From a virus: a stretch of 22,430 nt of DNA. Where the stretch lies: positions 1-22,430 of IMG/VR virus record IMGVR_UViG_3300009086_000878. One strand, written 5' to 3'. This document shows, piece after piece, positions 1 through 16,531 of the stretch. The position numbers and the translations under genes are program-made. The notes beneath the pieces are model-generated. The model did no database searches. It had not been told where the DNA came from and was given only the letters and a program-made list of their open reading frames with translations. Position 1 is the stretch's first letter; the number at the start of each line of letters is the position of its first letter.

Positions 1-742
1 TATCTCCTTTTTGTAAATTCTCCCATGACCAAAGTGGTTGCAAGTTTGTATAATGCATCGCTATCTTTTGTTCTTCTAACTTAGAAAAATCAAATGAACT
101 TAATAGTATTATATGGTCTATGTGCCACCCATCTTGTGACCAATTATCCCATGTCATACCTTCCTTGAATTGACCTTTAAGATACTCCATTAGAAAGTCT
201 ATTTCACAACCCACTAATTCTACTGAACTAATAGTTTTTCCTGTTAGAGATTTTTTTAACATTTTACCTAATCTAGTTCTTAAATTACATTTTATTTTGA
301 AATTTATATCATTATGATATCTTTTCATTGTTCTAGCGTTTGTTTTATCTCTATTGATATCTCTATATTTTTTATCCCATTTTGCTTTTAGTTTTTTATA
401 ATGTTCTGTTTTTGACATTGGGATTTTCCATGTTTCATAAGCACATTTTTTGCAATAAGATTTTTTATTGTAAAAAACTTTAGGACTTGAATAAGAAGGA
501 AATTCGTCAAGAACTTTTACTTCACTACATAGTCTACATCTTCTCTTCCCTTTTTTTTGAAGTAAATGGAGTTCTTCTCTATACGATTGTTCTTTTTGAT
601 ACTCTTCCCAAGTTCCTTTACTTCTTTGCGTGTGTTCAATTTGACAGGGTTTACATTTACCTCTTCTATGTCCTTGTTTAGTTGCAAGTGCAAAATTCTC
701 TACGGGTAAAGTTTTTTTACACATGGTGCATTTTCTATTCAT
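1..742 (-). CDS. HNH endonuclease with two zinc-ribbon motifs (3' end outside the window)
   Basis: The frame is open from an ATG at 742 to the window edge, giving 247 residues with no stop. The N-terminal half has two CxxC pairs typical of treble-clef or zinc-ribbon units (C5/C8 with C30/C33, and C69/C72 with C97/C100). A lysine-rich linker follows. The C-terminal part carries the HNH core: GWHIDHIILLSSFD around residues 205-218 and HYTNLQPLWSWENL around 230-243. Such proteins are usually free-standing or intron-borne homing endonucleases that nick or cut phage DNA. The start lies 2 bp after the desaturase stop, so it is probably co-transcribed. The gene looks clearly more A/T-rich than its neighbours, which fits recent acquisition. 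A restriction-type or packaging HNH protein is possible but less likely given the paired zinc motifs. Confidence 0.8.
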   Translation of the reverse strand, partial: MNRKCTMCKKTLPVENFALATKQGHRRGKCKPCQIEHTQRSKGTWEEYQKEQSYREELHLLQKKGKRRCRLCSEVKVLDEFPSYSSPKVFYNKKSYCKKCAYETWKIPMSKTEHYKKLKAKWDKKYRDINRDKTNARTMKRYHNDINFKIKCNLRTRLGKMLKKSLTGKTISSVELVGCEIDFLMEYLKGQFKEGMTWDNWSQDGWHIDHIILLSSFDFSKLEEQKIAMHYTNLQPLWSWENLQKGD

Positions 743-744
743 AA

Positions 745-1461
745 TCATTTACCTCTAGTATCTAAGTGTTTAATAAAAAAGTGGTATGTTGCGTCAAATA
801 AACCAAACTGCGATAGACTAGGTTTGTCATGGTGGTTCTTATGATATAACTCACCTCCCCACATTATCGCACCTATAGTATTATTCACTGGATTCCTATT
901 CAGATGACCGATCATATTCAAAGTGACTTGGAAGATATAACAGAATGCAATGAATGACACCCATGCGGTTCCTAATCCTACCAAGAACATCAATGCACCT
1001 ACCACAATACCCGTCTCCCAGTAGTACTTTGCTTGGAGTTGATAGACAGGATGTCTAAGCATCCATCTAGGAATCAGAGTCATCTTGGGTGGGTAATTGA
1101 ATACTAAGAAGTTACGTAGAATACTATGAGCATTCCCATGTGGGTCTTTATCGGTATCAGTGTGTTTATGATGAGTCCTATGAGTAGATGCCCACCCCAT
1201 AGATGGTGTCAATAAGAATGCGGCACAAAGAAACGCACTAATAGATTCAACTCTAAGACTTGGTTGCCAAGACTTATGTGAACAATACCTATGTTGGAAT
1301 CCTGAGATTAAATATGCCGCGAGTAAATAGAAAGGCACAAACCAGACTGACAACTCTATAATAGAGTATGATGGCAACCATACAATAGCAAGAAGTACAC
1401 ACAACATATAGAATGTCGTATGCACGTATCCAGTTCTTTTACCTATCCAATTTGTTATCAT
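745..1461 (-). CDS. Fatty acid desaturase, acyl delta-9 type, membrane-bound
   Basis: A 238-residue integral membrane di-iron desaturase that would put a cis double bond into a saturated acyl chain. All three histidine boxes are present: HRYCSH (57-62), HRTHH (94-98), which continues into the family signature KHTDTDKDPH, and HKNHH (207-211). Hydrophobic stretches at about 14-30, 35-54, 72-86 and 150-184 fit the four-helix topology. It is shorter than most bacterial acyl-CoA or acyl-lipid delta-9 desaturases (about 270-320 aa), mainly at the N-terminus. Its ATG overlaps the stop of the ketoacyl synthase gene (GGAATGATA) behind a strong GGAGGTGG ribosome site, so the two are translationally coupled. 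Lipid desaturases are known in some cyanophages. The acyl carrier (CoA, ACP or lipid) cannot be told from sequence. Confidence 0.93.
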   Translation of the reverse strand: MITNWIGKRTGYVHTTFYMLCVLLAIVWLPSYSIIELSVWFVPFYLLAAYLISGFQHRYCSHKSWQPSLRVESISAFLCAAFLLTPSMGWASTHRTHHKHTDTDKDPHGNAHSILRNFLVFNYPPKMTLIPRWMLRHPVYQLQAKYYWETGIVVGALMFLVGLGTAWVSFIAFCYIFQVTLNMIGHLNRNPVNNTIGAIMWGGELYHKNHHDKPSLSQFGLFDATYHFFIKHLDTRGK

Positions 1462-2621
1462 TCCACCTCCAATATCAATGAAGAAGACCTGCCTCCAAAG
1501 GCAAATGAATTCTTCATCGCAAACTTATCTTTAACCTGTTTCTTGTATTTATAGACAAATTCGTGATCACAGTCATCTATATTGAAGTTCTTCGGTACCA
1601 CTCCGTTGTAAAGACACATCAAACTATAGATTGTTTCGTTGATACCACTTGCCGCGAGAGAGTGTCCCACCTTTGACTTGAAACTAATCACGGGTACACT
1701 AGGCACAACTTGTTGAATTGCATTATACTCTAGGTCATCTCCCAATGGAGTTGATGTGCCATGAGCATTTACAAAGGCAATTTCTCCCGCAGAATCATTT
1801 GTTACGGATCGCATTGCCGCAAGTGATCCTGTACAGTTAGGGTCTGGTGCAGTAGGTTTACCAAGTGCTCCATCCGTATGATGAGATACGGTGTTGATGT
1901 ATCCAATGATGTTGGCACCTCGTGCTCGTGCATCAGACTCTTTCTCTAATAACATGGCACCTGCACCCTCACCCATAATGAACCCATCACGTTTCTTATC
2001 AAAGGGTCTTGACTCGGTACCAAGTGCACCCAACTGACTGAAGATAAACATGTTGTCATCTACTGCGGGATTATCAGTACCACCCACAACAACAAACTTA
2101 TGGGTATCTAGTAAATGCATCCCGTAGTCAATAGAATACAGACCAGTCGCACAGGCGGCATCCATACTGACACACGCACCACGGAAATCAAACACTTGAC
2201 TGAGCATTCCTACAGTAAAGTCTTTTAGGTACTGCACTCCACTGCGGGGGGACAAACGTCTGCCACCTATCATCTTATCAAGGAAAGGTTTTGCCATAGT
2301 CTCTTGTTTAATAGCAACCGAACTAAAGACAACCGCAACATCAGTACTGTCAATGTCACCTATTGCCTGTTGCACAACATGAATAGCATTCTTAGATGCG
2401 GTAGATAGTGAAGCATGGGTAGGTTTACGAATCCCATCTGGAATCACATAGTTTACTTCACGTGCTCTAAAACACTTATTCCCTTTAAGGGATTCTACGT
2501 CAGTCTCAAAGTCAATAGGTGGTTCATAATGATCATCAATCATATTCTCAAAACACTCCATCGGATATGTTCCAAGGGTGTCCACCAAACCTACACCAGT
2601 AACAACTACTCTATCTTTCAT
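1458..2621 (-). CDS. Beta-ketoacyl-ACP synthase (KAS I/II, FabF/FabB-like)
   Basis: A 387-residue thiolase-fold condensing enzyme that elongates an acyl chain by two carbons from malonyl-ACP. The catalytic triad is visible: nucleophile C157 in MDAACATGLYSIDYG, H287 in VNAHGTSTPLGD, and H320 in SFKSKVGHSLAASG, with the conserved lysine K315 five residues before it. The N-terminal RVVVTGVGLVDTLG and the GFIMGEGAGAMLLE segment also match KAS II. The C-terminal glycine loop reads NSFAFGGRSSS where FabF normally has GFGGTN. It is slightly shorter than FabF (about 410 aa). It sits 2 bp after the DUF3310-like gene and overlaps the desaturase, so the pair would be made together. No ACP gene is in the window, so host ACP would be needed. 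Secondary-metabolite KAS alpha subunits are an alternative relative. Confidence 0.92.
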   Translation of the reverse strand: MKDRVVVTGVGLVDTLGTYPMECFENMIDDHYEPPIDFETDVESLKGNKCFRAREVNYVIPDGIRKPTHASLSTASKNAIHVVQQAIGDIDSTDVAVVFSSVAIKQETMAKPFLDKMIGGRRLSPRSGVQYLKDFTVGMLSQVFDFRGACVSMDAACATGLYSIDYGMHLLDTHKFVVVGGTDNPAVDDNMFIFSQLGALGTESRPFDKKRDGFIMGEGAGAMLLEKESDARARGANIIGYINTVSHHTDGALGKPTAPDPNCTGSLAAMRSVTNDSAGEIAFVNAHGTSTPLGDDLEYNAIQQVVPSVPVISFKSKVGHSLAASGINETIYSLMCLYNGVVPKNFNIDDCDHEFVYKYKKQVKDKFAMKNSFAFGGRSSSLILEVE

Positions 2622-2623
2622 AA

Positions 2624-2914
2624 TTACCTACCATTCACATCATGTACATGAAGTTGGATGATTGCGTAGTGTAACACCTTCATCAAGTCAGCACGATTGT
2701 AACCATTCTTGTTACCATACCGTTGTGCGTACTTCATTATGTTACCGATACAGAAACCATCACCATGACCACCATCAATAATAAACTCAGTTGCTTGAAA
2801 CTTATTCTTGGAGTAGTGTTCTCCATAGGTTCCATCAATATAATCCATTAGTTCGGTCATTGCCTTGTCTTCGGCATACTTGTATTCAATATTATGTTGC
2901 ATTGATCCTTTCAC
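2624..2914 (-). CDS. DUF3310 (SaV-like) small protein
   Basis: A 96-residue protein starting at GTG 2914 behind GAGGG with 6-nt spacing. An ATG at 2902 (MQHNIEYK) behind AAAGGA is an alternative. The segment FCIGNIMKYAQRYG followed by NRADLMKVLHYAIIQL matches the DUF3310/SaV-like pattern, a small helical family common in phages and sometimes labelled nucleotide kinase without biochemical proof. I give no enzymatic function. It is the first gene after a good promoter (2947-2975) and sits 2 bp before the ketoacyl synthase gene, so it probably leads the lipid-gene transcript. Confidence 0.75.
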   Translation of the reverse strand: MKGSMQHNIEYKYAEDKAMTELMDYIDGTYGEHYSKNKFQATEFIIDGGHGDGFCIGNIMKYAQRYGNKNGYNRADLMKVLHYAIIQLHVHDVNGR

Positions 2915-2946
2915 GATTTTCCCTCAATTAAGTTATATAAGTGTAC

Positions 2947-2975
2947 AGTATATCACCATTATGGCGAAAAGTCAA
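2947..2975 (-). promoter_or_regulatory. Sigma70-like promoter before the DUF3310-KAS-desaturase operon
   Basis: On the minus strand, TTGACT (2970-2975), a 17-bp spacer, then TATACT (2947-2952), with TGA directly upstream of the -10 giving an extended -10. The TGA stop of the upstream oxygenase gene lies inside the -35 box. The predicted start is about 25 nt before the GTG. Confidence 0.75.
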
Positions 2976-3643
2976 GTACTTGTTTCCATTTCACAAATCA
3001 GGTCTTGGATTGCTTCAAGTGCTTGGTCTTCTCTCTCACCATATTCCCCATAAGGGAATTTGAACGCAAGGGTAAACCTCGGACAGTTAGTCCAAGCAGT
3101 GTGCCAACAATGATGTTCTGGTTCGTCTACACGACCAAAACGATACCACCTTGCTTGCCACCCCTTAACATCTTTCTCTGTGATAATCTCATCTTTCTCT
3201 TTATCATAATAAGAGAAGTGACCATCACCGTCTTCTGACCAAGTGATAATCATCTGGTAACCATGTGCGTTCCAGTTCGTATGCCAACCCACATACCCAT
3301 TGGGAGGATAGTAGGATGTCAGAGAGTTACCCTTAGCACCAAACATATGAACCAGTTCACTCTTAGTCAACATCTTCAATGGTTCAAATATCTCAGGATG
3401 AGACTTGGCACCGTGGGACACTTGAAACCCATATGCGTGTTCGGGAAACCCGATATGGTCAGCACCCTTCCGAATCATCTCTTGAAGGTGTTGTGGTTCG
3501 CAATAGTACCTACCTCGTCCGATAGCAACTCCACCCTCGTTTGCCGACAACTCGGTCATCAGTTCACGATGAGGCAGAAACCTCTCAACAGTATCGTCAA
3601 GAAGTTTCAGAAAGTCCTCATTGCGAATCGTTATCTCACTCAT
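2972..3643 (-). CDS. Putative 2OG-Fe(II) oxygenase-like protein
   Basis: A 223-residue protein from ATG 3643 (a TTG one codon earlier is possible), with GAAGG upstream. The central part reads SYYPPNGYVGWHTNWNAHGYQMIITWSE (split here: SYYPPNGYVGWHTNW, then NAHGYQMIITWSE), ending about residue 136. This is the beta-strand pattern of a 2OG-Fe(II) dioxygenase, where H121 would be the first iron ligand and N123 stands where Asp is usual. Residues 177-195 (HHCWHTAWTNCPRF, then TLAFKF) would supply the distal His and the 2OG-binding Arg (R189). Substrate is unknown. It overlaps the thyX stop by 8 nt. The His-x-Asn variant makes the catalytic assignment tentative; a non-catalytic double-stranded beta-helix protein is possible. 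Confidence 0.6.
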   Translation of the reverse strand: MSEITIRNEDFLKLLDDTVERFLPHRELMTELSANEGGVAIGRGRYYCEPQHLQEMIRKGADHIGFPEHAYGFQVSHGAKSHPEIFEPLKMLTKSELVHMFGAKGNSLTSYYPPNGYVGWHTNWNAHGYQMIITWSEDGDGHFSYYDKEKDEIITEKDVKGWQARWYRFGRVDEPEHHCWHTAWTNCPRFTLAFKFPYGEYGEREDQALEAIQDLICEMETST

Positions 3644-4292
3644 CAAGTGCCTTCACTATGTCAGGGAAGTGTTGACCAATAATATCCCAACACTGGTCTG
3701 CCACGATCATATGCTCCTTCTGTGTACCATTTGCTCGTCTCAGGTCACAGTAGTGAATCCAACTGCGTAGACTACCTGCCATATACAAGGTTGTCTCGGT
3801 CAGACCTTCGGGTAACAATGCTCGTGCCTGTTCCTTTGCGATGCCTAACTTCAACGCACCTTCGTATTCCTTCTTGGCAAAGTTACGAACCCTTGCTTGA
3901 GATCGGAACCACTCATCTTTGAGATGTTTGTCATCAGTCACAATAGAGTTCTGTCGGTTCTTTTCATCTTGGGTTCGGGTCTCACGAACCACATCAATGT
4001 TCTCACTCACCGCATACCGTTGGGAGAACTCTTGGAATGAAAACGAACGGTGACGGAGAATCTGCCGTGCGATATCACGAGTATTCTTGATCTCCATTGT
4101 CATATGAACCATCTCAAATGGTGACCAGTGATTCTCACGCATCAGGTAACGCAACAGTTTTGGTGCGGTCTCCTTGTTTGACTGATTAGTAGGATTACTA
4201 ACTCGTGCGGTATAGGCAATCAGTTCTGCCGCAGTATGGCAGTCCGTTGTTGCGTTTGGTTTGCTCAATGCAATTAGTTGTACACTACTCAT
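3636..4292 (-). CDS. thyX: Flavin-dependent thymidylate synthase
   Basis: A 218-residue ThyX, which makes dTMP from dUMP with methylene-tetrahydrofolate, FAD and NADPH. The signature is at residues 80-93: RHRSFSFQEFSQRY, matching RHRxxSxxExSxRY with Gln in place of the common Asn. HWSPFEMVHM (55-64) and the C-terminal SLRSWIHYCDLRR with ARALLPEGL upstream are further ThyX hallmarks. Length is normal for phage ThyX. The ATG overlaps the end of the small membrane protein gene (GATGAGTAG), with GAGG 9 nt upstream. T4 itself uses the unrelated ThyA-type enzyme (td). Together with the dCMP deaminase at 16934-17392 it would raise dTTP for phage replication. Confidence 0.95.
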   Translation of the reverse strand: MSSVQLIALSKPNATTDCHTAAELIAYTARVSNPTNQSNKETAPKLLRYLMRENHWSPFEMVHMTMEIKNTRDIARQILRHRSFSFQEFSQRYAVSENIDVVRETRTQDEKNRQNSIVTDDKHLKDEWFRSQARVRNFAKKEYEGALKLGIAKEQARALLPEGLTETTLYMAGSLRSWIHYCDLRRANGTQKEHMIVADQCWDIIGQHFPDIVKALDE

Positions 4293-4548
4293 CTTCTATT
4301 TCCTCATATTCATGGTGCGTTATATTTATCCCATCAACAACTTCTTCAATTTCAACATCACTCATCGTCAACTCGTACTTCTCCCTCATATACTGCATTA
4401 CTACTCTCGCAGTTGCCTTACTTCCAAGATCAATTCCTTCGTCTCGTCCCTCTTCCTCACCATCCACAAATCCCTGTATCTTTCCATACCAGAAAGAACA
4501 AAACATTAGTACAGTAGTGACAATCGGCCATCCCCAGTGCAATTCCAT
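4285..4548 (-). CDS. Small membrane-anchored protein of unknown function
   Basis: An 87-residue protein. Residues about 6-21 (GWPIVTTVLMFCSFWYG) form one likely transmembrane helix, followed by a strongly acidic cytoplasmic part (GEEEGRDEG, then EIEEVV and EYEEIEDE at the end). I recognise no family. It starts 2 nt after the gp41 stop and its stop overlaps the thyX start, so it is in the same transcript. Its place between helicase and thymidylate synthase may only reflect packing; a role in attaching replication to the membrane would be a guess. Confidence 0.7.
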   Translation of the reverse strand: MELHWGWPIVTTVLMFCSFWYGKIQGFVDGEEEGRDEGIDLGSKATARVVMQYMREKYELTMSDVEIEEVVDGINITHHEYEEIEDE

Positions 4549-4549
4549 A

Positions 4550-5962
4550 TTACATCCTAAAGTTTTTAAAGTTTTCTGCTTTCATTCTCTGACCAGACGA
4601 ACTGTTATCAAAGACTGGTTTATCGTCCCATCCCTTGTCAGGGTCAGCACTAGGTATCATCTCCTCGTCATCATCATCGGTCAGTCGCATCTTACTACGA
4701 TCAACTTTGATGGTGAACTTCTGGTTTGCTCCAGTCGCATCATTATAACGATTCTTCAACTGCTTAACCATGATCTTACCAAGGTTATTTAGTTCATCAT
4801 TAGTGATCAACGCAAACATCAGGTCAGCAGTAGCAGGTAGACCGAACGACTCAGAAGTATCCTCCAGACCAACATCATCATTACCATAACCAGATCGGGT
4901 AGTCTGTGTCGCAGACATAATCGGCACATTGAACTCAACCGCAAGTCCACGCAGTTCCTCGGCAATACTCTTGATGTAAGAGTAAGAGTTGATAGCACCA
5001 CCCATACCCTTCATTCTGGCAGACGCACAGATGTTCAGATAATCAACAAAGATAATCTCAGGGATAAAGTTCTTCTTCAACTTCATCTCATTCAACAGTG
5101 CTCGGAAGTGTGAGGTGTTTGCTTGACCAGTAGGATACTCCTTGATGATCAGTTTACCTTGGGTCTTTGCGGCAATCTGCGATACCTTGTCGGTGAACAT
5201 ATCCTTAGATAGATGTTCCAACTGACTGATATCAACATTAAGTAAGTTCGCATCAATCCGTTCTGCGATTCTCTCTTCTGCCATTTCCATAGTAATGTAC
5301 AGTGCGTTCCTACCCTGCGATAGAGCAGATGCCGCCATATGACACATGAACAGAGACTTACCAACACCAGTACCCGCAAGGGCAATGTTCAGTGATTTGT
5401 TGGTGAGACCACCCTTGGTGATCTGGTTGAACATATCAAGGTCAAATGAGATGCGTTCTTCTTGCTCGTGATAGAATTCATAACGACCCTCCACATTCTC
5501 CAGATAGTCGTGACCGATGTTTGTATCAAAGGTAACACCCAATGCCTTAGATAAGACATCGGGTATCGCATTCTTGTGTAGGGTTGCGTGTTTGCCATCA
5601 ATGATAGAGATAGACTCCATCACCGCATTGAACACTGCACGGTCTTGACACCACTTCTCGGTGCGTTCAATTAACCACTCAAGATTCTCAGGTTCTGGTG
5701 TGAACAAATCATGGAGCAGTTCGTTTGCTCCACGATAGTTCTCATCACCCATCTCAGATGCACTCTCGTCCATCTCAATCTTGAATGCTTCTAGGGAAGG
5801 TAGTTTGTTATACTTGGCAACAAACTTTGTTACTTCTTTAAACAGTCCTTTGTAGACACCTTGGAAATAGTCGGGCGTAAGAAACGCACCGACCTTTCGC
5901 ATGTAGGGGTCATTGGTTAACAGATTCCTCAGTATCGTCTGTTCCAGATTGATGTTCTTCAT
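4550..5962 (-). CDS. 41: Replicative DNA helicase, gp41 / DnaB-like
   Basis: A 470-residue hexameric 5'-3' helicase that unwinds DNA ahead of the leading-strand polymerase and works with the primase. The N-terminal helical domain begins NINLEQTILRNLL, as in DnaB-type proteins. The RecA-like core has Walker A in ALAGTGVGKSLF (about residues 194-205), the MEMAEERIAERID segment, and Walker B in EIIFVDYLNI. SATQTTRSG and the EDTSESFGLPATAD region match DnaB motifs H3/H4. Length equals T4 gp41 (475 aa). I chose ATG 5962 over an in-frame start at 5986 because AAAAGGAG lies 7 nt upstream. It overlaps the preceding acidic protein by 53 nt. A promoter inside that gene (6079-6107) probably drives it. 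Confidence 0.95.
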   Translation of the reverse strand: MKNINLEQTILRNLLTNDPYMRKVGAFLTPDYFQGVYKGLFKEVTKFVAKYNKLPSLEAFKIEMDESASEMGDENYRGANELLHDLFTPEPENLEWLIERTEKWCQDRAVFNAVMESISIIDGKHATLHKNAIPDVLSKALGVTFDTNIGHDYLENVEGRYEFYHEQEERISFDLDMFNQITKGGLTNKSLNIALAGTGVGKSLFMCHMAASALSQGRNALYITMEMAEERIAERIDANLLNVDISQLEHLSKDMFTDKVSQIAAKTQGKLIIKEYPTGQANTSHFRALLNEMKLKKNFIPEIIFVDYLNICASARMKGMGGAINSYSYIKSIAEELRGLAVEFNVPIMSATQTTRSGYGNDDVGLEDTSESFGLPATADLMFALITNDELNNLGKIMVKQLKNRYNDATGANQKFTIKVDRSKMRLTDDDDEEMIPSADPDKGWDDKPVFDNSSSGQRMKAENFKNFRM

Positions 5963-6323
5963 TATATAACTCCTTTTGCTCTTCATGCATTTCTTCTGTT
6001 GCCATCACCTCACCAGACTTTAGGTCTTGTGCAACTAACGTCCCATTATTAACGGCAACTTCCAGTAAACTAGTAAGTATTCTACCACAGTACTGTTGTA
6101 AAGTCAAGTCCTCTACTGTTAAATCTGGGTCTGGAGTAGAAATAATCTGAAAATTAAAACTGATCTGTTCTTCATTCTCTACAAGTTCAATCACATCAAA
6201 AGCAATCTTGGTCTCAGGAAACTCTTCCATAATCCGAATGTCCCACCCGTGAGGGTTATCGGATGGGACAATCTCATAATGAATGTCTTCACTCAACTTG
6301 GTTTCTATCTCATTCAATCTCAT
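5910..6323 (-). CDS. Acidic hypothetical protein between uvsX and 41
   Basis: A 137-residue protein from ATG 6323 (GTG one codon earlier is also possible). It is rich in Glu and Asp, especially in the tail (EEMHEEQKELYNEEH, then TDDTEESVNQ). The N-terminal two thirds look like a small alpha/beta domain. No family is recognised. It occupies the position of T4 gene 40 between uvsX and 41, but I see no similarity that would support calling it gp40. Its start overlaps the uvsX stop by 14 nt and its 3' end overlaps gene 41. A sigma70-like promoter is embedded in its coding sequence. Confidence 0.75.
   Translation of the reverse strand: MRLNEIETKLSEDIHYEIVPSDNPHGWDIRIMEEFPETKIAFDVIELVENEEQISFNFQIISTPDPDLTVEDLTLQQYCGRILTSLLEVAVNNGTLVAQDLKSGEVMATEEMHEEQKELYNEEHQSGTDDTEESVNQ
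6079..6107 (-). promoter_or_regulatory. Sigma70-like promoter inside the 137-aa gene, for helicase 41
   Basis: TTGACT (6102-6107), 17-bp spacer, TAGAAT (6079-6084), with TGTGG before the -10. The spacer holds the palindrome CAGTACTG. The predicted start is about 110 nt upstream of gene 41. Confidence 0.65.
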
Positions 6324-7371
6324 CACCGTCTACAATATCGTCCATTGATACTAGTGACTTTTTAGTCATAGAGTATTGACTATTTAAGAAGGTAGCAAAG
6401 TCAGTATCTTTCCAGATAGGTTCCCAGAACTCATCCTTCAGAGTGTCCTTCTCTCGCACCTTACCTTCTACCATCTCTCCAGTCGTTCTATCCACTCGGC
6501 AATACCACCCATTAGAAGGTTTAGCGACATAACCGCCAGCAAGAGCAACATCCAACAAACCACTATTGCGCTCAACACCACCTTCCCAAGAAACACTGAT
6601 AGGGATTTTAGATTTCTCTTTAACATATCGCGACTTCTCAACATTAATGACAAAATCATATCCTGTGACCTCTGTACCAGTTTTCTTCTGTCTACGACCC
6701 AGAATCCAGATGTTATCGGAACTGTAGTAAATACCAGTACCACCACCTACGATGTCTTTGGGGAATAGACCAATCTCTTTATATGTGTGGTTGACGGCAA
6801 GCATTGGTATATTCTTCATGGTCAGATATGGAGTACACATCCTAAAGAGACCCTTCAATGCTTTAGCACGGGACATATCTGCCACCGACTTCTCGTTAAT
6901 TGCATCCTCTAACTCTTTCTTGGATGCGAGATTACCAATTGAATCAATGACGATTATTACGTCATCTTTTCTGTCAATGTTCTCAAGTTGACCAATTAAG
7001 TCAAACTTCAGTTCCTCAACATTGGCGATGGGTGTATGCAACACCCGCGAGGTGTCAATACCGAACTGCTCAAAGTAAGATTGGGGACTACCAAACTCAC
7101 TATCATAAAAGAGCAGTACTGCGTCCTTCTTTGCTCGTAGATACGCACCTGCCATAAGCAGTGCGAACGAGGTCTTGAAGTGCTTACTCGGTCCTGCTAG
7201 GACTGTTAATCCTGGCGTGACACCACCGTCAATACTTCCTGCCAACGCGACATTCACCATTGGAACATCGGTTGGTACCATATCTTTCTCTGTAAAAAAC
7301 TTGCTGTTAGACAGTACTTCCGCTGTCTTGATCTTGCTGTTCTTCTTTAGTTTGTCCATCATACTTGACAT
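6310..7371 (-). CDS. uvsX: RecA-like recombinase UvsX
   Basis: A 353-residue strand-exchange recombinase that forms filaments on ssDNA and starts recombination-dependent replication. SKFFTEKDMVPTDVPMVNVA at the N-terminus matches T4 UvsX closely. Walker A is in LAGPSKHFKTSFAL (about 58-71), LLFYDSEFGSPQSYF follows, Walker B is in VIIVIDSIGNLASKKE, and NHTYKE and GGGTGIYYSSDNIWIL are further conserved blocks. Length is a little below T4 UvsX (about 390 aa) because the C-terminal acidic tail is shorter, though it ends DDIVDGDEIE. I prefer ATG 7371 to ATG 7390-7392 since GAGG lies 9 nt upstream and the N-terminus then aligns with T4. The start overlaps the sugar dehydrogenase 3' end by 65 nt. 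A promoter lies at 7425-7453. Confidence 0.96.
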   Translation of the reverse strand: MSSMMDKLKKNSKIKTAEVLSNSKFFTEKDMVPTDVPMVNVALAGSIDGGVTPGLTVLAGPSKHFKTSFALLMAGAYLRAKKDAVLLFYDSEFGSPQSYFEQFGIDTSRVLHTPIANVEELKFDLIGQLENIDRKDDVIIVIDSIGNLASKKELEDAINEKSVADMSRAKALKGLFRMCTPYLTMKNIPMLAVNHTYKEIGLFPKDIVGGGTGIYYSSDNIWILGRRQKKTGTEVTGYDFVINVEKSRYVKEKSKIPISVSWEGGVERNSGLLDVALAGGYVAKPSNGWYCRVDRTTGEMVEGKVREKDTLKDEFWEPIWKDTDFATFLNSQYSMTKKSLVSMDDIVDGDEIE

Positions 7372-8242
7372 TATTTGATTCCTCACGTTCATCTAGTTCA
7401 TATTGTTTTCTGTAACTGTTGTTAATATTAACACACTTCTCAATTAAAGTCAAGTCATTATCAAACAAAGTAAATGCTTTTGTGTCTTTGGGGAAACACG
7501 CACCACCAAATCCACGTTTACCATCATAGCCAGGGACCCTTGTGTGACCTAATCCAATACGAGGGTCTTTGCCAATCGCATTAACGATTGTAGGGAAGTT
7601 ACAACCAAACTTCTCAATTGAATCAAACAACTGATTAAAGAATGTAACCTTGGTAGCAAGGTAAGAGTTTACTCCATACTTAATGAATGCCGCTTCAGCA
7701 CCACTACAGAACAGATACTCGTCCGCAGTACATAGACTATACACGTCATACAACTGTGCAAGACCTTGACATGCATCAGGGTGACCACCAATCACATGAT
7801 ACTTTGCCATCACAAATGCTTCTTTATTGGCAGACTCTGTCAGGAACTCAGGGTTGATAGTCAATCGTTTAATATCATCCTCAAAGATAGAACAATACAT
7901 TCGGTCAACAATTTCTGGTGTGATTGTTGATTTGACAACAACTCCACCAGTAGTATGCTCTAACAACTTTAGTACCGCATCCTCTACAATAGACGCATCA
8001 ATAAATCCACTATCTGCCATCGGAGTTGGAGCACACACAAATGTTAGGTTTGGTTGCCAATCCAATAGATCATCAATAGTAGTACCATGTTTTGGGTCTA
8101 CATAAAACTTCTCTACTTCTCTGTGGGTAAAGGCATAGTCCACTGCCTGTCCTACAAATCCGTGTCCGACAATACCAATTCTCAACTTAGGGTATTCACC
8201 GTTCTCGTCTAGTTCTGGCATAACATCTTCTTCTTCACTCAT
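7307..8242 (-). CDS. UDP-glucose 6-dehydrogenase-like protein, short form
   Basis: A 311-residue UDP-sugar dehydrogenase-like protein. The NAD-binding motif is IGIVGHGFVG (22-31). FVCAPTP (68-74), KSTITP (104-109) and INPEFLTESAN (129-139) are family blocks. The catalytic cysteine is C249 in GFGGACFPKDT, and K188/N192 match conserved active-site positions. Full-length enzymes have about 390-450 residues with a C-terminal UDP-binding domain; here the protein stops shortly after the central helix and has a polar tail (TKEEQQDQDSGS), so that domain is missing. The last 65 nt overlap uvsX, and the tail may be a product of that overlap. It follows the epimerase by 3 nt. The two would make UDP-GlcA and then UDP-GalA, if the short form is active. 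Confidence 0.88.
   Translation of the reverse strand: MSEEEDVMPELDENGEYPKLRIGIVGHGFVGQAVDYAFTHREVEKFYVDPKHGTTIDDLLDWQPNLTFVCAPTPMADSGFIDASIVEDAVLKLLEHTTGGVVVKSTITPEIVDRMYCSIFEDDIKRLTINPEFLTESANKEAFVMAKYHVIGGHPDACQGLAQLYDVYSLCTADEYLFCSGAEAAFIKYGVNSYLATKVTFFNQLFDSIEKFGCNFPTIVNAIGKDPRIGLGHTRVPGYDGKRGFGGACFPKDTKAFTLFDNDLTLIEKCVNINNSYRKQYELDEREESNNVKYDGQTKEEQQDQDSGSTV
7425..7453 (-). promoter_or_regulatory. Sigma70-like promoter for uvsX
   Basis: TTGACT (7448-7453), 17-bp spacer ending TGTGT, TAATAT (7425-7430). It lies inside the 3' part of the sugar dehydrogenase gene. The predicted transcript starts about 47 nt before the uvsX ATG. Confidence 0.7.
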
Positions 8243-8245
8243 ATC

Positions 8246-9187
8246 TTATCCTTTGTATCCGTAATATTCTTTAAACCACCGAACAAATGCTTGTACACCT
8301 TGTTCAATATTCACTTTGGGTTTGTAACCCAGTTCTCTTAGTTTCGTGGTATCACTCCAAGTTTCTAGAGTGTCCGCAGGGTGTCGGGGAGCGAGAATGA
8401 TCTCCGGTTCCTTACCCACTTCTTTTCCGATATTTTCAATAAAGTGCATCAGTTCTACTTGCTTACCTCTACCGATATTGAATATTTCTCCAGACTCCAG
8501 ATCAGCAAACAATGCAATCTTGATACCTTCAATGATGTCACCGATGTAGGTGAAGTCTCGTTTCATCTTACCATAGTTAAATGCTTTGATGGGTTGATCG
8601 TGGCACATCTTGTCAGTGAACTGATATAGTGCCATGTCAGGTCTGCCCCAAGGACCATAGACAGTAAAGAATCGTAGACCAACATTGTTGAGTCCACTGA
8701 TCTTAAACTGACATTCGTTACAGTACTTAGTATAGGCATATGGGTTCAACTGGTGACCAGTAACCTCGTCCTCAGTCCATCCAGTCTCAGGGATAGGGGT
8801 ACCACCATAGACTGAACTGGTAGATGCATAGACAACCTTCAACACATTATACATCTTACACACTTGAATAAGATTCTGTGTAGCAATGATGTTGTCTTGA
8901 TGATACAACTGTTCATTACCGACAGAATCACGTACACCCGCACGTGCGGCAAGATGGATTACAATGTCAGGTTGAATCTTGTTGAAGGCAATATCCAAGG
9001 CATCAAAGTCTTTAAGATCGCATCTCATAACTTCGTGACCAAAATATTCTACCCGATCATACTTCAGTGATTGGTCATAATAGTCATTGAAGTTGTCTAG
9101 TCCAAACACTTCAAAACCATCGTCCAATAGACTGTCTGCAAGATGCGAACCGATAAACCCTGCCGCACCAGTAATTAAAATTCTCAT
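8246..9187 (-). CDS. UDP-glucuronate 4-epimerase (NAD-dependent SDR epimerase)
   Basis: A 313-residue extended SDR enzyme that interconverts UDP-glucuronate and UDP-galacturonate. The Rossmann motif is ITGAAGFIGSH (5-15). The catalytic Ser lies in YASTSSVYGG (120-129) and YxxxK is Y150/K154 in NPYAYTKY. The run RFFTVYGPWGRPDMALYQF followed by YGKMKRDFTYIGDI is the hallmark of the CapI/LspL glucuronate epimerase group rather than GalE. Length is slightly below the usual 330-340. It lies 3 nt before the dehydrogenase that would supply UDP-GlcA. The sugar could end up on a phage structural protein, the host surface or DNA; the sequence does not say which. Confidence 0.92.
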   Translation of the reverse strand: MRILITGAAGFIGSHLADSLLDDGFEVFGLDNFNDYYDQSLKYDRVEYFGHEVMRCDLKDFDALDIAFNKIQPDIVIHLAARAGVRDSVGNEQLYHQDNIIATQNLIQVCKMYNVLKVVYASTSSVYGGTPIPETGWTEDEVTGHQLNPYAYTKYCNECQFKISGLNNVGLRFFTVYGPWGRPDMALYQFTDKMCHDQPIKAFNYGKMKRDFTYIGDIIEGIKIALFADLESGEIFNIGRGKQVELMHFIENIGKEVGKEPEIILAPRHPADTLETWSDTTKLRELGYKPKVNIEQGVQAFVRWFKEYYGYKG

Positions 9188-9221
9188 ACTTACTCCGTTG
9201 TTAGTACCTTATATAGTCTTC

Positions 9222-9914
9222 TCATACCGTCCTCCAATTCTTAGGATTAGATAATACTCTCTCGTATTGTGTCACACCAATCTTCCTTGTATATAGCAAA
9301 TCACCTGCTACACAAAATCTACTATTCCGCAAAGACTCCTTGTCCTTAAACGGTTGTACCACACTCTGACTATCTCCCTCTCTCATTTCTATATTGTGTA
9401 ATAAATTTGAGGGAAATATGTACAACACCCCCTCTGATATAGGAAAAGAATCTACTTTGGAGTTGCGGTTACCGTGACATTCAAAGAAATGTTCATGCGG
9501 TTCGTTAGGTCGTGCCTTATGTGGGTATTGAAAATTGATGTTTCTTTCTTTACCATCAGCAATGTGAGGGTAGTATGTAAACGATATATGATTCTCTATG
9601 TGATCGTGTAAGTTGATCCCGTTCTGGTCAGTAACATTGAAGAAACATTTGGTCAACTGAATATCTAGTTTGTCTTGACGTATTCTAAGATGACGGAGAT
9701 ACTCATCAACACCACTCTTCAATCTGTCCATAAAAAGATCACGAAACAACTCATCGGTATGTACGGTTTCAAAACCAACAAAGTCGTGAGACTGACCATC
9801 ACTATTAGAATGTTTTAAATACAAGTCAAACCATTGATCTTTCTCTTGTTCCGAGACCATAAGTTTTGTACGAGAAATGACCGTAGGAAATGCCAGATAG
9901 TTATTTGCTTCCAC
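9222..9914 (-). CDS. Putative 2OG-Fe(II) oxygenase (TIGR02466-like)
   Basis: A 230-residue protein starting at GTG 9914, which shares its G with the TAG stop of the primase-like gene; AGGA lies 7 nt upstream. The core reads NLHDHIENHISFTYYP (101-116) and SEGVLYIFPSNLLHNIEM (160-177), followed by R199 in RNSRFCVAGDLLYT. This is the layout of the TIGR02466-type double-stranded beta-helix oxygenases, with H103/H105 as proximal ligand candidates, H173 as the distal His and R199 for 2-oxoglutarate. Substrate is unknown. It sits between the primase-like gene and the sugar nucleotide pair. These proteins recur in marine T4-like phages. Confidence 0.65.
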   Translation of the reverse strand: MEANNYLAFPTVISRTKLMVSEQEKDQWFDLYLKHSNSDGQSHDFVGFETVHTDELFRDLFMDRLKSGVDEYLRHLRIRQDKLDIQLTKCFFNVTDQNGINLHDHIENHISFTYYPHIADGKERNINFQYPHKARPNEPHEHFFECHGNRNSKVDSFPISEGVLYIFPSNLLHNIEMREGDSQSVVQPFKDKESLRNSRFCVAGDLLYTRKIGVTQYERVLSNPKNWRTV

Positions 9915-10876: not shown

Positions 10877-10905
10877 ATAATACCACAGTGGTCAATTAAT
10901 GTCAA
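10877..10905 (-). promoter_or_regulatory. Sigma70-like promoter for the primase-like gene (leaderless)
   Basis: TTGACA (10900-10905), 17-bp spacer ending TGTGG, TATTAT (10877-10882). The spacer contains the palindrome ACCACTGTGGT, a possible operator. The GIY-YIG gene's TGA stop lies in the -35 box. The expected start falls on or next to the A of the ATG at 10870. Confidence 0.75.
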
Positions 10906-11678
10906 GTTAAAAAGTTATCCAGTGTTGATTTTCCGATTTTCTCTGCTTTCTTTCTAGCATAATTCTTTCGTTGTTGCTCTCGTAACTTCTCACGATTCTT
11001 TTCACGATACTCTCTATCCTTCTCTCGTAACTTCTCACGATTCTTTTCACGATACTCTCGTTGGTACTCTGTATCCCTTTCACGTATCTTCTCACGATTC
11101 TTTTCACGATACTCTCGTTGGTACTCTGCATCCTTTTCACGATTCTTTTCACGATACTTTCGTTTTCTCTCTCGTATCTTCTCACGATTCTCTTTATGAT
11201 ACTTTCGTTCTTTCTCTAGTAACTCCTCACGATTCTCTTTATAATACTCTCGTTGTCGCTCTCGTATCTTCTCACGATTCTCTTTATAATTCTCTCGTTG
11301 TCGCTCTCGTATCTCCTCACGATTCTTTTCACGATACTCTTTATAATACTCTGGTGTCCCACCCCTTCCATGAACATACAAATGATTATCTTTCCCAGAC
11401 TTTGTAGGTGGTGGAAAACAAACAACAACATTATAATACTTGTCCCAACACTTCTCCTTTCTATTATTGAGAAGGTCAATCTCCAACTGCTTCATATCAG
11501 GTACAGTACCATATGCGAGAATTCGTCTACTAAATCCTTCTGGTATACTATGTGCTTTGAACTGCTCCATGACTTTTGACGAATGAGTATAACCATCATC
11601 TGGTGTGCCTTGGTGATAACCGATATAGTACATACTATTCTTGGAATCGTGCCACATATACACGAATGCTTCACTCAT
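10902..11678 (-). CDS. GIY-YIG endonuclease with a long charged repeat arm
   Basis: A 258-residue protein. Residues 1-105 form the nuclease: FVYMWHDSKNSMYYIGYHQG (5-24) is the GIY-YIG motif, followed by RRILAYGT (51-58) and the LEIDLL helix. Residues 109-245 are about eight copies of a 15-residue unit close to YREKNREKIRERQRE, almost all Arg, Lys, Glu and Asn, likely a long single helix or DNA-contacting arm. The C-terminus STLDNFLT resembles a sliding-clamp-binding tail. Its ATG overlaps the PD-(D/E)XK stop (ATGA). By family it would be a free-standing homing endonuclease of the Seg kind, cutting near its own insertion site beside gene 43. Active-site residues beyond the motif cannot be checked by eye. 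Confidence 0.8.
   Translation of the reverse strand: MSEAFVYMWHDSKNSMYYIGYHQGTPDDGYTHSSKVMEQFKAHSIPEGFSRRILAYGTVPDMKQLEIDLLNNRKEKCWDKYYNVVVCFPPPTKSGKDNHLYVHGRGGTPEYYKEYREKNREEIRERQRENYKENREKIRERQREYYKENREELLEKERKYHKENREKIRERKRKYREKNREKDAEYQREYREKNREKIRERDTEYQREYREKNREKLREKDREYREKNREKLREQQRKNYARKKAEKIGKSTLDNFLT
10944..11351 (-). repeat. 45-bp tandem repeats coding the charged arm of the GIY-YIG protein
   Basis: About eight imperfect copies of a 45-bp unit. On the plus strand the common core is TCTCACGATTCTTTTCACG followed by ATACTCTCGT. Spacing is 15 codons in most intervals; one interval of 19 codons carries an extra DTEYQREY-like piece. Frame is kept throughout. Confidence 0.85.
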
Positions 11679-12091: not shown

Positions 12092-14538
12092 TCCAATGAT
12101 GCCTGTGGTTCGGCAGTCCAACCAACCGCATCTAGTATGGGTTCAAGTGGGGAAAGGAATGCCTTAGAGAACATCTTGTCATAGTCAATGTACTTCTCCA
12201 GTTGTAACTCACGAGGCAAGTTCTGTGGGTACGAGATCACATTCTCCTTGATAGGATTAGGTGTCTTGAGATAAACGAACTTGATCTTCTCACCATTCTT
12301 AATGACCTCGTGACGCATACCCTTGGTGTACTTGTTATACAACAGAGCACCCCGAACATGGATGGGACATGCCTTCTTGTAGATAGTCTTGCGGTCACTC
12401 CACTTCTTGATGTCACTCACACCACGAGGGAATGATACATCTTCGGCAGGTAGACTGGTAAACTCGTTGCGGAACTTACGAATATAATCCTGCGTCTCAT
12501 CCTCGGTACCATTGATGATAACACCAAAGATTTCCTTGAACTTGTCACGCACCACCTGTGGGGTAGATGACTTGACTGCCTCAATACCCATCATCTTGAG
12601 TTTGGGTTCTGCGTACTGGACACCCTCGTTGTTGTGTACATTGAGGATGTATCGTTTCTTCGCAACCCAGATAGCACGGTCAGCAATAACCTCACGACCC
12701 ATCTCCATACGGTTGACATACGCATTGGTATAGTCAGCAAGGTCAGCATATGCCTTGGTCAGTACAGGTTCAAAGTGTTCGGAACAAATCTTGTCCAGAA
12801 ACTTGACAGGGTCTTTGGGGGAAAACTTATCAACCAGATCACTCATACGCATGTAGACCGAGTCAGTATCAATCGCAACCACATAGTCCTCGTCCGTATT
12901 GAGTAGAGTATTCATCTCACGGTTGACTGCTCGTTCTGCCCACTTGATAGACAACTGTCCTGCCAGAGTAATAGACTCTGCGACTCGTTGGTCAAAGTAT
13001 CGGAACCATCGGTTACCCAGTGCCCCATAGAGACTGTTCATCAGAATCTTGATAGACATCTGTTGATTGTCAAGTGTGGCAATCTTGTTTGACAACTCTT
13101 TGGTGGGAGCAATCTCATACTCGGACTTTGCGTCCAACATCTGCTTCTTGATCTCTCTGCGTTCGGCATAGTACTGACGAATCACACTAGGGATGATACC
13201 CTCTTTCTCTTTGGTGAACCGAACACCAGATGGGGCAACCGCATAGTTACCAGTGGTATTGGTTACTCCTGCAAGCATCCGTTCTACATCAGTATCAACC
13301 AGACCATCTACCACAGTCTCAGGTGACATATTGTATTGTACAATGATCATCGGATACAGGGAGTTCAAGTCAAAGGATGTCACCCACTCGTGAGAACCGA
13401 CTTGGGGTTCCTTCACATAACCACCCGCAAAATCACCCTTGGGTTTTTCGGTCTTGGCAGGAACCGCAATCTTCTGCTTGTTCAACAGACGATAGATGAT
13501 AGTGTCCCAGATAGTAGTCGTACCAAACACATCTTCATAGTTCACACCACCACGGTATGCCATAGTCATTGCCAGAGTGATCAGACCGAGTTTCTCTTCC
13601 AGTAGGTCAACCAGTTCAACATCTCGGATGTTGTAGTCAATGAACTTCTGGTGATCTTCCTTGTACAGTGTGTGTAGGTTGCCGTGCTCCTCATACGAGA
13701 GTTTGCGTTCACCCAGTACGACATGGGCAATGTGATCCAGACGATAGGACTCTTGCTGTCCCAGAGTATTGAGAGTAAACTTGCGGAACAGATCATAGTA
13801 ATCCAACTGAGCAATACCCATCAGATCATAGGTGTCCACATCTTTCATACCCATCTTACCACGAATGGTGCGAGACGAGACAGTACCCCAAGGTGAGAAT
13901 CGTTTGGTGGATTCTTCTCCGATGACCTTTCTTGTTCTGTTAACAAGGTAGGGGATATCAAACTGCTTAGAGTTCCAACCAGTCACGATGTCAGGTGAAC
14001 CATGATTCTGCCAGTAGTCAAGGAACTGATCTAGTAGTTGCAACTCTGAGTTGCACTGAGTATAGATGCAGTTCTCTTTGGCAGTGTACTCACCCAGACC
14101 CCAGACACGAAAGAAGTCTTCCTTACTAGACTTGGTACAGATTGCGGTGACTGGATAGTTTGCTTGATCTGGTTCGGGGAAACCTTCGTCCGACTGAACC
14201 TCAATATCAATGGTAGTGATTACAGGGAGTTCACGATCAAACTTGATGTCGTTGGGAAACTCCTCTGCGATATACTGTGAGATGAAGTTGTTCTGTCCAT
14301 AGACCTTGAAGTTGTCTACATGTTGGTATCGTTTGCTAAACTCGGTTGCTTCTCGCATGGTCTCAAACTGAATGGGTTCAACAGGTCTGCCATCTAGTGT
14401 AGACCATCCAACATTCTTACGACCACTGACATACATGGTAGGTTTGAAGGGGATGCGTTTCTTGACACGTTGACCATCTTTGTACCCACGATAGAGCAGG
14501 GTAGAACCGTATCTGTCAATGCTTGTGTAAAAGTCCAT
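12076..14538 (-). CDS. 43: DNA polymerase, family B, gp43
   Basis: An 820-residue replicative polymerase with 3'-5' proofreading; T4 gp43 has 898. Exonuclease motifs: Exo [10 protein letters not shown] (D111/E113), Exo [16 protein letters not shown] (D194), Exo [13 protein letters not shown] (Y302/D306). Polymerase motifs: A in [12 protein letters not shown] (D390), B in [18 protein letters not shown] (K497, N501), C in [11 protein letters not shown] (D557/D559). The C-terminal ASLEDFFG is the expected tail for binding the sliding clamp gp45. The ATG has GAGGAATC upstream. All motifs are present and the frame is uninterrupted, so no intron or intein splits it. Its stop overlaps the PD-(D/E)XK start. 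Transcription likely begins at the consensus promoter 14564-14592. Confidence 0.98.
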
Positions 14539-14563
14539 ATAGATTCCTCATAATTAAGTACCC

Positions 14564-14592
14564 ATTATACACGAACAAACAGGCAATGTCAA
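14564..14592 (-). promoter_or_regulatory. Consensus sigma70-like promoter for gene 43
   Basis: TTGACA (14587-14592), 17-bp spacer, TATAAT (14564-14569): a perfect match to the bacterial housekeeping consensus. The TGA stop of the glycosyltransferase-like gene lies in the -35 box. The predicted leader is about 19 nt and contains GAGGAATC. Confidence 0.85.
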
Positions 14593-15338
14593 TCAATAAT
14601 TTTAAAAGTATTTCCCCAGTGTCTTTCCCAAGGTTTCTGTTCCATACCTTCATGGGTTTGAGTGATACCAAATGATTTAGATATCACTTGGGTTGATGCT
14701 CTCGTGAACTTAGTGGGTCGTTCAAACCTAGAGTTATATACTTTATGCAGTTCTTTTGCTGTGGTACCGTGACCAATCTTGTCGGTGTCAGCATAATGGC
14801 ACATAAAGGTGTACTCACTATTGATTGGATTATGAGATAGGTAGGTCTTGACAAGTCTCTCCATACAACCATAAGGACCACCATTGAGAGGGAATTCTTT
14901 GTTCAATAATAAGTCATTCATGTATATTGCACATCTACGAGAGAGGGAGTAGCAAGACATAAACAGTCCATGATTTGCCCAGTCAAGTCCGTGCTCCATA
15001 GAGAAGTCGTGTTGTTTTTTGAACTCGTCTGCGTCCTCAAGATAGGAATCGTGTTCCATTACATAGAATCGTTCTTTACTCTCGGCACGTTTCTTTATCA
15101 ACTGCCAATGAGATATATCACCCGCTCGTTCACTTGGGGAACTGCTCAAACCCCTCTGCATCTTATGTTGCAAAGGTTGCCAGTTATAGAGGGGTTCTAG
15201 TTCTGAGATGGTATCGGGGGTGTAACACTGAATGACTTCAATGTCAAGGATGTCTTGTTTCTGCCATGATTCTAACGCAATCTCTGTATACTTCACAGAG
15301 GTCGGATTGTTCAAATCTGCAATCATATATGCTTTCAT
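14589..15338 (-). CDS. Putative glycosyltransferase (GT25-like)
   Basis: A 249-residue protein. The N-terminus AYMIADLNNPTSVKY has the look of a nucleotide-sugar transferase beginning. The central SPSERAGDISHWQLIKK (67-83) followed by RFYVMEHDSYLED (90-102) matches the layout of GT25-type enzymes, where a hydrophobic strand leads into an acidic metal-binding EDD or DxD motif; here it reads EHDS, so the metal site is altered or different. GLFMSCYSLSRRCAIYM follows. Not a confident family match. It lies just after a terminator with no clear promoter of its own, so it may depend on read-through. With the UDP-GlcA/UDP-GalA genes 6 kb downstream it could use those sugars. Confidence 0.5.
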   Translation of the reverse strand: MKAYMIADLNNPTSVKYTEIALESWQKQDILDIEVIQCYTPDTISELEPLYNWQPLQHKMQRGLSSSPSERAGDISHWQLIKKRAESKERFYVMEHDSYLEDADEFKKQHDFSMEHGLDWANHGLFMSCYSLSRRCAIYMNDLLLNKEFPLNGGPYGCMERLVKTYLSHNPINSEYTFMCHYADTDKIGHGTTAKELHKVYNSRFERPTKFTRASTQVISKSFGITQTHEGMEQKPWERHWGNTFKIID

Positions 15339-15347
15339 AATATACCT

Positions 15348-15377
15348 AAAAATGTCGGGTGACCTATTAAGTCACCC
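15348..15377 (-). terminator. Rho-independent terminator after the 33-aa gene
   Basis: Read on the minus strand: GGGTGAC, 7-nt loop TTAATAG, GTCACCC, then GACATTTTT. Seven paired bases with a T run. It separates the 33-aa gene from the glycosyltransferase-like gene, whose ATG lies 9 nt beyond it. Confidence 0.65.
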
Positions 15378-15390
15378 TAGTTCTGTCTAT

Positions 15391-15492
15391 CTATACAAGT
15401 GGTAGGATAGCAACAATTGATGTAACTAAAACTATCAAACTTAGTAGCGCATCTCCGAGTCTCTCTACTCGTCCAAATGTGCGGGTCTTCAT
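15391..15492 (-). CDS. 33-residue single-pass membrane peptide
   Basis: A small open frame from ATG 15492 to TAG 15391. It has a basic N-terminus (MKTRTFGRVERLGD) followed by one hydrophobic helix (ALLSLIVLVTSIVAILPLV), a classic positive-inside membrane peptide. GGAG lies 10 nt before the ATG, and a small hairpin (GGAAG-GATAAT-CTTCC) lies a little further upstream. It fills an otherwise empty 255-bp gap between two genes and is followed at once by a terminator, which supports it as a real gene end. Function is unknown; small membrane peptides in phages often act on the host envelope, but nothing here shows that. Confidence 0.6.
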   Translation of the reverse strand: MKTRTFGRVERLGDALLSLIVLVTSIVAILPLV

Positions 15493-15593
15493 AACTTTTT
15501 TGCTCCAGATTGGTGGGAAGATTATCCTTCCGCTATTATATATAATGGTAATGTTCTATGATAGAGGTCATAACCAAATGTCATGTCACTTTT

Positions 15594-16163
15594 TTAAACA
15601 AAAAAGGAGGGATCAGTATCAGGGTCACTCTCAAAACCAAATGAGAAGGTAACTCTAGATACTGTTGGTTCCAGTTGATGCCATGTTCCTCTCGGAATCC
15701 ATACACAATCGCCTGGTTTCATAACAACAGTTTCGTCTGCATTCGTTGGTTCCTCCGTGTATCCAATAGTGATCTTACACTCATTGATTACTTGGAGTAG
15801 GAATACATCCATACTGTCCTTATGTCTTGGGTACGAACCAGAGAACTGACCAAACCCACAAAACGCAATGTTCGTGATTTGAGGTGCTCCCTTCTCGTAC
15901 TCAAATTTCTTAGGGGCAGGGTCTACAAAGAACTCTTCCATCTCCGCAACAATATCTTTTGCGATTTGAGGTGCAGACCCTCGTTCGTGAAACGAGTTCA
16001 TACCCAGTCGTTGCTTATCACGATTCCAGTCGTAAAGTTTATCTGGATGAGTATCAACCATTGGCATGACATCGTTCCACTGGTAAGATGTAATCTCTTC
16101 TATCCTACCCCACCAATGTTTCTTATCACGAATAGATTGTATGTTATCGTCAAAACGACTCAT
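15594..16163 (-). CDS. JmjC/cupin-type 2OG-Fe(II) oxygenase
   Basis: A 189-residue protein with the cupin pattern of the ribosomal oxygenase (ROX/Cupin_4, JmjC-like) group. The iron site is H114-x-D116 in SYPRHKDSMDVFLLQV (110-125), the downstream strand is CKITIGY, and the distal ligand is H162 in GDCVWIPRGTWHQLEP (151-166). In cellular relatives this fold hydroxylates protein side chains such as ribosomal protein arginine or histidine. It is shorter than cellular ROX enzymes and lacks their C-terminal winged helix, as expected for a minimal phage version. The ATG overlaps the regA stop (ATGA). Substrate is unknown; a host or phage protein is a reasonable guess. Confidence 0.7.
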   Translation of the reverse strand: MSRFDDNIQSIRDKKHWWGRIEEITSYQWNDVMPMVDTHPDKLYDWNRDKQRLGMNSFHERGSAPQIAKDIVAEMEEFFVDPAPKKFEYEKGAPQITNIAFCGFGQFSGSYPRHKDSMDVFLLQVINECKITIGYTEEPTNADETVVMKPGDCVWIPRGTWHQLEPTVSRVTFSFGFESDPDTDPSFFV

Positions 16164-16531
16164 TTGTTTCCTATATTATATTTGGGGCAGAGTTCCCATT
16201 CATCTTTCTCCTTAAATCCGATGATTTTAATCTGTCGTAATGGTGCACATTCCGTTGCAACTTCTTTGTTCTGTATCTCAACAAGACCCCAGTCTGACAG
16301 TAGTGTCGCGATAGTGTTGCGTCTCTCTACGTCTGATTGTTCTAGGTTTGCTTTCTTACCATCCAAGATAAACAGTTCTTTGAAGTGTACGATATAGTAC
16401 CTTCCCTGCTTATGTAGAATGTGACACGACTGAAACAGTTTCTGTTCTTTGCGTGAGGCAACTCCGATTCTTGTTAGAGTTTCACGCACTTTGAGGAAAT
16501 CATCGGGTTCTGCCAGAGTGATCTCTAGCAT
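16160..16531 (-). CDS. regA: RegA translational repressor
   Basis: A 123-residue RNA-binding protein that in T4 blocks the ribosome sites of many early mRNAs, including 44, 45 and its own. The match is strong along the whole length: MLEITLAEPDDFLKVRETLT (1-20), LFQSCHILHKQGRYYIVHFK (32-51), DWGLVEI and the C-terminal KDEWELCPKYNIGNK, against a T4 protein of 122 residues. I chose ATG 16531 because it aligns with the T4 start; the frame is open upstream to a GTG at 16570 that overlaps gene 62. Spacing to gene 62 is 25 nt. Gene order 62-regA-(insert)-43 follows T4. Confidence 0.95.
   Translation of the reverse strand: MLEITLAEPDDFLKVRETLTRIGVASRKEQKLFQSCHILHKQGRYYIVHFKELFILDGKKANLEQSDVERRNTIATLLSDWGLVEIQNKEVATECAPLRQIKIIGFKEKDEWELCPKYNIGNK

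Follow-up and report, generated by a model that had tools for sequence, protein, structure and literature searches.

The stretch analysed here, hereafter the window, is a virus record of 22,430 bp (IMGVR_UViG_3300009086_000878) taken at its full length. It carries ThyX and the T4-like genes gp41, UvsX, gp43, gp44, gp45 and gp46, the latter confirming the description of this DNA as a phage genome in an earlier note. Two overlapping minus-strand reading frames, here called KAS and DES, were found exactly where that note had placed them (1458–2621 and 745–1461). They lie among the following features.

2..748, minus strand: downstream open reading frame, HNH-endonuclease-like by eye, with a weak Stc1 match only; it runs off the contig
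745..1461, minus strand: DES, a membrane fatty-acid desaturase of 238 amino acids (PF00487, 3.2e-10)
1458..2621, minus strand: KAS, a FabF-type 3-oxoacyl-ACP synthase of 387 amino acids (PF00109 and PF02801)
2624..2914, minus strand: DUF3310 gene (PF11753, 2.1e-10; phrog_480, 2.6e-30), separated by a 2-nt gap from KAS, of which it lies upstream
2975-2947, minus strand: sigma-70-like promoter TTGACT-N17-TATACT with a TG extension, just upstream of the DUF3310 gene
2972..3646, minus strand: conserved upstream gene of 224 amino acids without a Pfam match, 2OG-Fe(II) oxygenase-like by eye

As expected of an AMG module, the pair sits among phage genes of a genuine phage genome, and TerL is present in a 138-kb relative (G001). 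By its gp43 the window groups with C48C1, apart from cyanophages; a cyanophage origin was dropped on this placement and on the absence of psbA (PF00124) from six records. C48C1, which is the closest relative among the sequenced phages of the collection, has no host listed and no match for KAS or DES. Directly before uvsX the window has UDP-glucose dehydrogenase-like and nucleotide-sugar epimerase genes (7307-9187, minus strand), and C48C1 has the same genes ahead of its uvsX-like gene. A 258-residue reading frame of the window (10902-11678, minus strand), without a Pfam match, ends in a long low-complexity tail of KNREK/RERQREY-like repeat units.

KAS is matched by PF00109 (1.5e-21) and PF02801 (1.9e-21), and its top NCBIfam model is TIGR03150 fabF (2.5e-61), with a score of 207.6 bits that falls far below the equivalog cut-off of 493.75 bits; other viral KAS score between 158 and 231 bits against the same model. 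Residues C157, H287, H320, K315 and F375 align to C163, H303, H340, K335 and F400 of Escherichia coli FabF, as required of a FabF-type active site, and are invariant in a nine-member alignment (A4). The predicted model, for which confidence is modest (pLDDT 72), finds its best PDB match in E. coli FabF (1kas; TM 0.81). KAS thus shares with this enzyme the fold, the catalytic Cys-His-His with Lys and Phe, the gating Asp and the best profile; it differs in being only about 30% identical and below the cut-off, in its divergent N-terminal half, in its position outside the cellular tree and in lacking a loop of about eight residues, NDxPxxAS (ND-P-AS), that is present in most of the FabF and FabB sequences compared but absent from KAS proteins of the pair. 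By its sequence, KAS resembles the fatty-acid family FabF and not PKS. Profile and fold alike make it FabF-type rather than a member of a non-lipid family, the outcome that the earlier note had named as speaking against its reading.

A first tree separates the KAS proteins of the pair, together with three viral KAS that are more distant, from 33 cellular sequences of FabF/FabB type (support 100/100), and KAS is therefore termed FabF-like here rather than filed as FabF. With further solo and jumbo-phage KAS in the tree, the pair KAS remained one group (94/92), whereas the single clade of all viral KAS seen in the first tree was lost. The viral KAS from outside the pair fall in several places of the enlarged tree, one of them inside the FabB group, which indicates that phages acquired KAS more than once. 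Both KAS and DES lie outside the sampled cellular families, at about 30% identity or less; searches of 289 Alphaproteobacteria and 229 Gammaproteobacteria gave no close cellular KAS, with none above about 225 bits in the former and none at E 1e-66 in the latter.

Because KAS lies far under the FabF cut-off and lacks the loop, its substrate or carrier may differ from those of FabF. KAS could then act on another carrier or substrate, in a polyketide-like or decarboxylating manner, with DES tailoring that product. The separate clade, the low family score and the missing loop would fit such an enzyme, as would the loss of several residues that we take to be ACP contacts of FabF (K65, R68, K69 and R206 are not conserved), although the N-terminal alignment is uncertain; with the same uncertainty, R127/K128 of KAS align to FabF R121/R122, which we also assume to contact ACP. 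However, FabF models rank first among the profiles, with modular polyketide and PfaA models far lower, the Cys-His-His-Lys-Phe set is complete and a carrier protein was not found in six records, and we regard this alternative as decidedly unlikely.

The second protein, DES, is matched by none of the NCBIfam models. It contains the three His boxes HxxxxH (57-62), HxxHH (94-98) and HxxHH (207-211), which are invariant in a ten-member alignment, and all the ligand positions sought are found (H57, H62, H94, H97, H98, H186, H207, H210, H211 and N182), N182 and H186 being presumably further ligands by their SCD1-like spacing. The active sites are therefore complete as the earlier note had claimed, with C157, H287 and H320 of KAS identified by alignment and all three His boxes of DES present. 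The AlphaFold2 model (pLDDT 92) matches human SCD1 best in the PDB (4zyo; TM 0.73, E 8e-7), and SCD1 enzymes are its sole solid matches, as expected of a desaturase fold. The putative 'delta-9' label given to DES derives only from this resemblance to SCD-type enzymes. Like SCD1 and bacterial DesC-like proteins, DES has the di-iron His boxes and this fold; unlike them, it has just 238 residues and belongs to a viral clade of its own. This virus-only clade (100/99) also holds solo DES, so that a separate clade of pair DES, obtained in the first DES tree, was lost once the solo viral sequences were added. Among GTDB contigs, even the best bacterial relative of DES does not exceed about 30% identity across the full domain.

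The stop of KAS and the start of DES overlap by 4 nt (ATGA; 1458..1461, minus strand: 'GGAATGATA'), as the earlier note had claimed and the sequence itself bears out, and the overlap suggests translational coupling of the two genes. The downstream reading frame in turn overlaps the DES stop by 4 nt, which we give as context. The earlier note also had KAS and DES share a promoter with the DUF3310 gene. A promoter scan returned 11 sites against 10.2 in shuffled sequence, a count no better than chance; the TTGACT-17-TATACT site is nevertheless retained in two relatives (c9507 and c21185), and a third (c27752) has a perfect TTGACA-N17-TATAAT at the equivalent place. The shared promoter is thus plausible, though unproven. 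Transcription probably starts at this predicted, conserved site, and the DUF3310 gene is the probable first gene of the KAS-DES transcript.

The pair is not peculiar to this genome, another outcome that would have spoken against the proposed module. IMG/VR was scanned for KAS and DES with single proteins and with alignments; as such a scan detects a contig only if it has the peptide patterns chosen, the number found is a lower bound. In all 17 contigs of the KAS clade (the window and 16 from IMG/VR) the genes adjoin, KAS then DES, and they overlap by 1-11 nt in 16 of the 16 other contigs; about ten distinct types remain after near-identical contigs are collapsed. The most distant KAS of the clade is 53% identical to that of the window. 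At least three genomic settings are seen. In the first, as in the window, the order is ThyX, the 224-residue gene, DUF3310, KAS and DES; the 224-residue gene is found in the contigs with this order, as context outside the pair, and DUF3310 there adjoins KAS. In the second, other genes intervene between DUF3310 and KAS: the pair lies between a CobS-like AAA gene with DUF3310 on one side and gp45 on the other, in a lineage whose gp43 is 42.5% identical to that of the window. In the third, it lies in an island with 2OG oxygenases (L036 and L037), to which L036 adds PhyH, a methyltransferase and a glycosyltransferase. All of the pair-bearing sequences are metagenomic; among cultured phages in the collection there was no DES match and none carried the pair, and their KAS matches (about 30% identical) were set aside, the records resembling host DNA or prophage. 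Origin from a bacterial KAS-DES pair was also dropped, since any KAS lies within 6 kb at only one of 80 bacterial DES loci.

Comparison of related contigs reveals that the pair has a history separate from its neighbours. Between c6622 and c21185, dS is 0.73 for gp41 and 1.03 for ThyX but 0.15 for KAS and 0.13 for DES (identities 75% and 73%, but 95% and 94%). Between c6622 and c35322 the relation is reversed, with dS of 0.23 for gp41 and 0.21 for ThyX but 0.96 for KAS and 0.71 for DES (98% and 98%, but 76% and 69%). As dS agrees with the protein identities, selection at the protein level does not account for the pattern. Across two phage lineages in which gp43 is 42.5% identical, KAS is 68% and DES 57% identical, and KAS is the better conserved of the two in nearly all contig comparisons. 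Read from these sequences, the KAS-DES pair is transferred between phages as one block. In two informative close pairs dN/dS is 0.07-0.21, indicating purifying selection; together with the 17 contigs, this gives the recurrence and selection expected of an AMG module. The earlier note's proposal that KAS and DES form a linked unit is thus upheld by their recurrence, co-transfer and selection. If the pair were a mere passenger, host genes recently captured and kept by chance, as the general variability of T4-like phage cargo regions might allow, neither purifying selection, nor deep clades made up of viruses only, for which the genomes searched gave no close cellular source, nor transfer as a unit would be expected; we consider this explanation highly improbable.

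Relatives of each gene also occur singly. Distant solo KAS (about 33% identical, mostly 369 amino acids) are present in about 33 contigs (L209-L241) with no DES nearby, one of which (L211) starts with a gp41-like fragment, and solo DES of the viral clade occur in 17 contigs (L263-L270 and L275-L283) where KAS is not nearby; that of L275 adjoins gp44-like and gp43-like genes. With more than 30 such KAS and 17 such DES, neither gene strictly needs an adjoining partner. In G538 (128,766 bp), a large record with a KAS of the distant family, and in G546 (82,265 bp) both genes are present tens of kilobases apart, so linkage is one arrangement and phages combine the two functions in other ways too. 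An apparent mini fatty-acid-synthesis set is seen in a record of jumbo-phage size with a terminase (L249, IMGVR_UViG_3300042350_002797, 364,554 bp; positions 680-8424). It comprises AcpS, a Rieske protein, FabA/Z, ACP, KAS and a desaturase, one of six desaturase matches in the record, and its KAS is not close to that of the window; similar KAS are found in L246, L248, L251, L253 and L254, some with a similar layout. A contig of 228 kb with a viral classification (L024) has five tandem desaturase-like genes (5409-9549); by eye the genes around them appear bacterial, and this may therefore be host DNA.

The pair as a module is well supported, and its putative enzymatic roles are predicted from sequence. 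We consider it moderately probable that it is a two-gene phage lipid module in which KAS elongates host acyl-ACP and DES desaturates, the two being coupled and on one transcript. In the following scheme we infer the activity, substrates, double-bond position and host effect of KAS and DES. During infection the phage would make both proteins from one transcript, with coupled translation. KAS, as a FabF-type enzyme, would extend host acyl-ACP by two carbons taken from malonyl-ACP, and host FabG, FabZ/A and FabI would finish each elongation cycle. DES, as a minimal di-iron membrane desaturase, would then act in the membrane on the elongated chain, be it acyl-ACP, acyl-CoA or lipid, and give it a double bond. 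The host membrane would receive acyl chains that are longer, more unsaturated or both, and a plausible benefit during infection is an inner membrane kept fluid for growth, lysis or the insertion of proteins. In E. coli it is FabF that elongates 16:1 to 18:1 and tunes fluidity, so that an elongase combined with a desaturase is naturally suited to acyl-chain tailoring. The earlier statement that the two enzymes are enough to change chain length was too strong. KAS catalyses condensation only, so the host has to supply ACP as well as the reduction and dehydration steps; no PP-binding domain (ACP) was found in six related records, the longest of 138,660 bp, and host ACP is therefore presumably used, together with host malonyl-ACP and acyl-ACP.

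The product may instead be a special acyl group for lipid A, a surface glycolipid or phage-protein acylation, and not bulk phospholipid. Several neighbours point in this direction: 2OG-oxygenase genes beside the pair in L036 and L037, with PhyH, an FkbM methyltransferase, a weak sulfotransferase match and a glycosyltransferase also beside it in L036; a glycosyltransferase and an APS-kinase/nucleotidyltransferase-like gene just upstream of the pair in L034; and the nucleotide-sugar epimerase and UDP-glucose dehydrogenase genes of the window. Such neighbours are, however, not common to the different contexts, the sugar genes are also present where the pair is missing (for example in C48C1), the scanned neighbours include no recognisable acyltransferase and no ACP was found in the six records; we hold this explanation to be unlikely. 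A bolder and rather doubtful version of the lipid module would have the viral KAS form a distinct condensing class without the FabF/FabB loop, which partners its own mini-desaturase to make a fatty acid absent from uninfected hosts. If true, elongated acyl-ACP would be channelled into a phage-specific lipid, rather than host lipid synthesis being boosted.

Cyanophage lipid desaturases were reportedly described by Roitman and colleagues in 2018. That phage desaturases are known, as the earlier note stated, agrees with the Arctic brine phage desaturase vFAD (PMC7300359), and cyanophage desaturase work is cited in two papers (PMC7300359; PMC11480375). As far as these sources go, the cyanophage, vFAD and Pelagibacter phage Mosig enzymes are, like DES, phage-borne membrane proteins presumed to alter host lipid unsaturation. 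Unlike DES, the Mosig fatty-acid desaturase has no adjoining KAS in the region examined, and it falls outside the DES clade of the pair; a KAS partner is not mentioned for vFAD or the cyanophage enzymes in the parts of the papers accessible. FabF appears in AMG lists (PMC10653327), and three Rhodobacteraceae prophages carry fabG-acpP-fabF (PMC8224337), a phage-associated FabF as here, though in a host-like fab order with ACP and FabG and no desaturase named there. The pairing itself, of which the earlier note was aware of no characterised phage example, was preceded in part: fabF and stearoyl-CoA desaturase are listed in one clause for two genomes of the freshwater pelagimyophages PMP-D (PMC7029224). 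These T4-like phages, assigned to SAR11, have the same two functions listed and probably the same kind of module; adjacency, phylogeny, unit transfer and occurrence elsewhere, all described here for this pair, are not given in that paper. No records recognisable as PMP-D genomes were among our sequence-search matches, and a literature search, with most subscription papers outside its reach, found no paper analysing a KAS-DES pair.

A relative of the window (L031; gp41, UvsX and ThyX 91-98% identical) contains CsgF, CsgG, a FecR-domain gene and a CHASE2-cyclase gene (12778-17556), in a layout like that of Pelagibacter phage HTVC008M. This pelagimyophage-like operon suggests a SAR11 host, but the UvsX of the window is 31% identical to that of HTVC008M, so such a host is no more than possible.

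KAS-DES belongs to a known class, that of phage lipid auxiliary genes. The phage desaturases in the literature found, as far as accessible, are single genes, whereas KAS-DES is a fixed elongase-desaturase pair; the trading of such a pair as a unit speaks for selection on acyl-chain tailoring in these viruses, and suggests that infecting phages remodel the membrane fats of their hosts. The pair provides a compact two-gene system for asking whether and why a phage remodels membrane acyl chains and, if the hosts are SAR11-like, the answer would bear on very abundant ocean bacteria.
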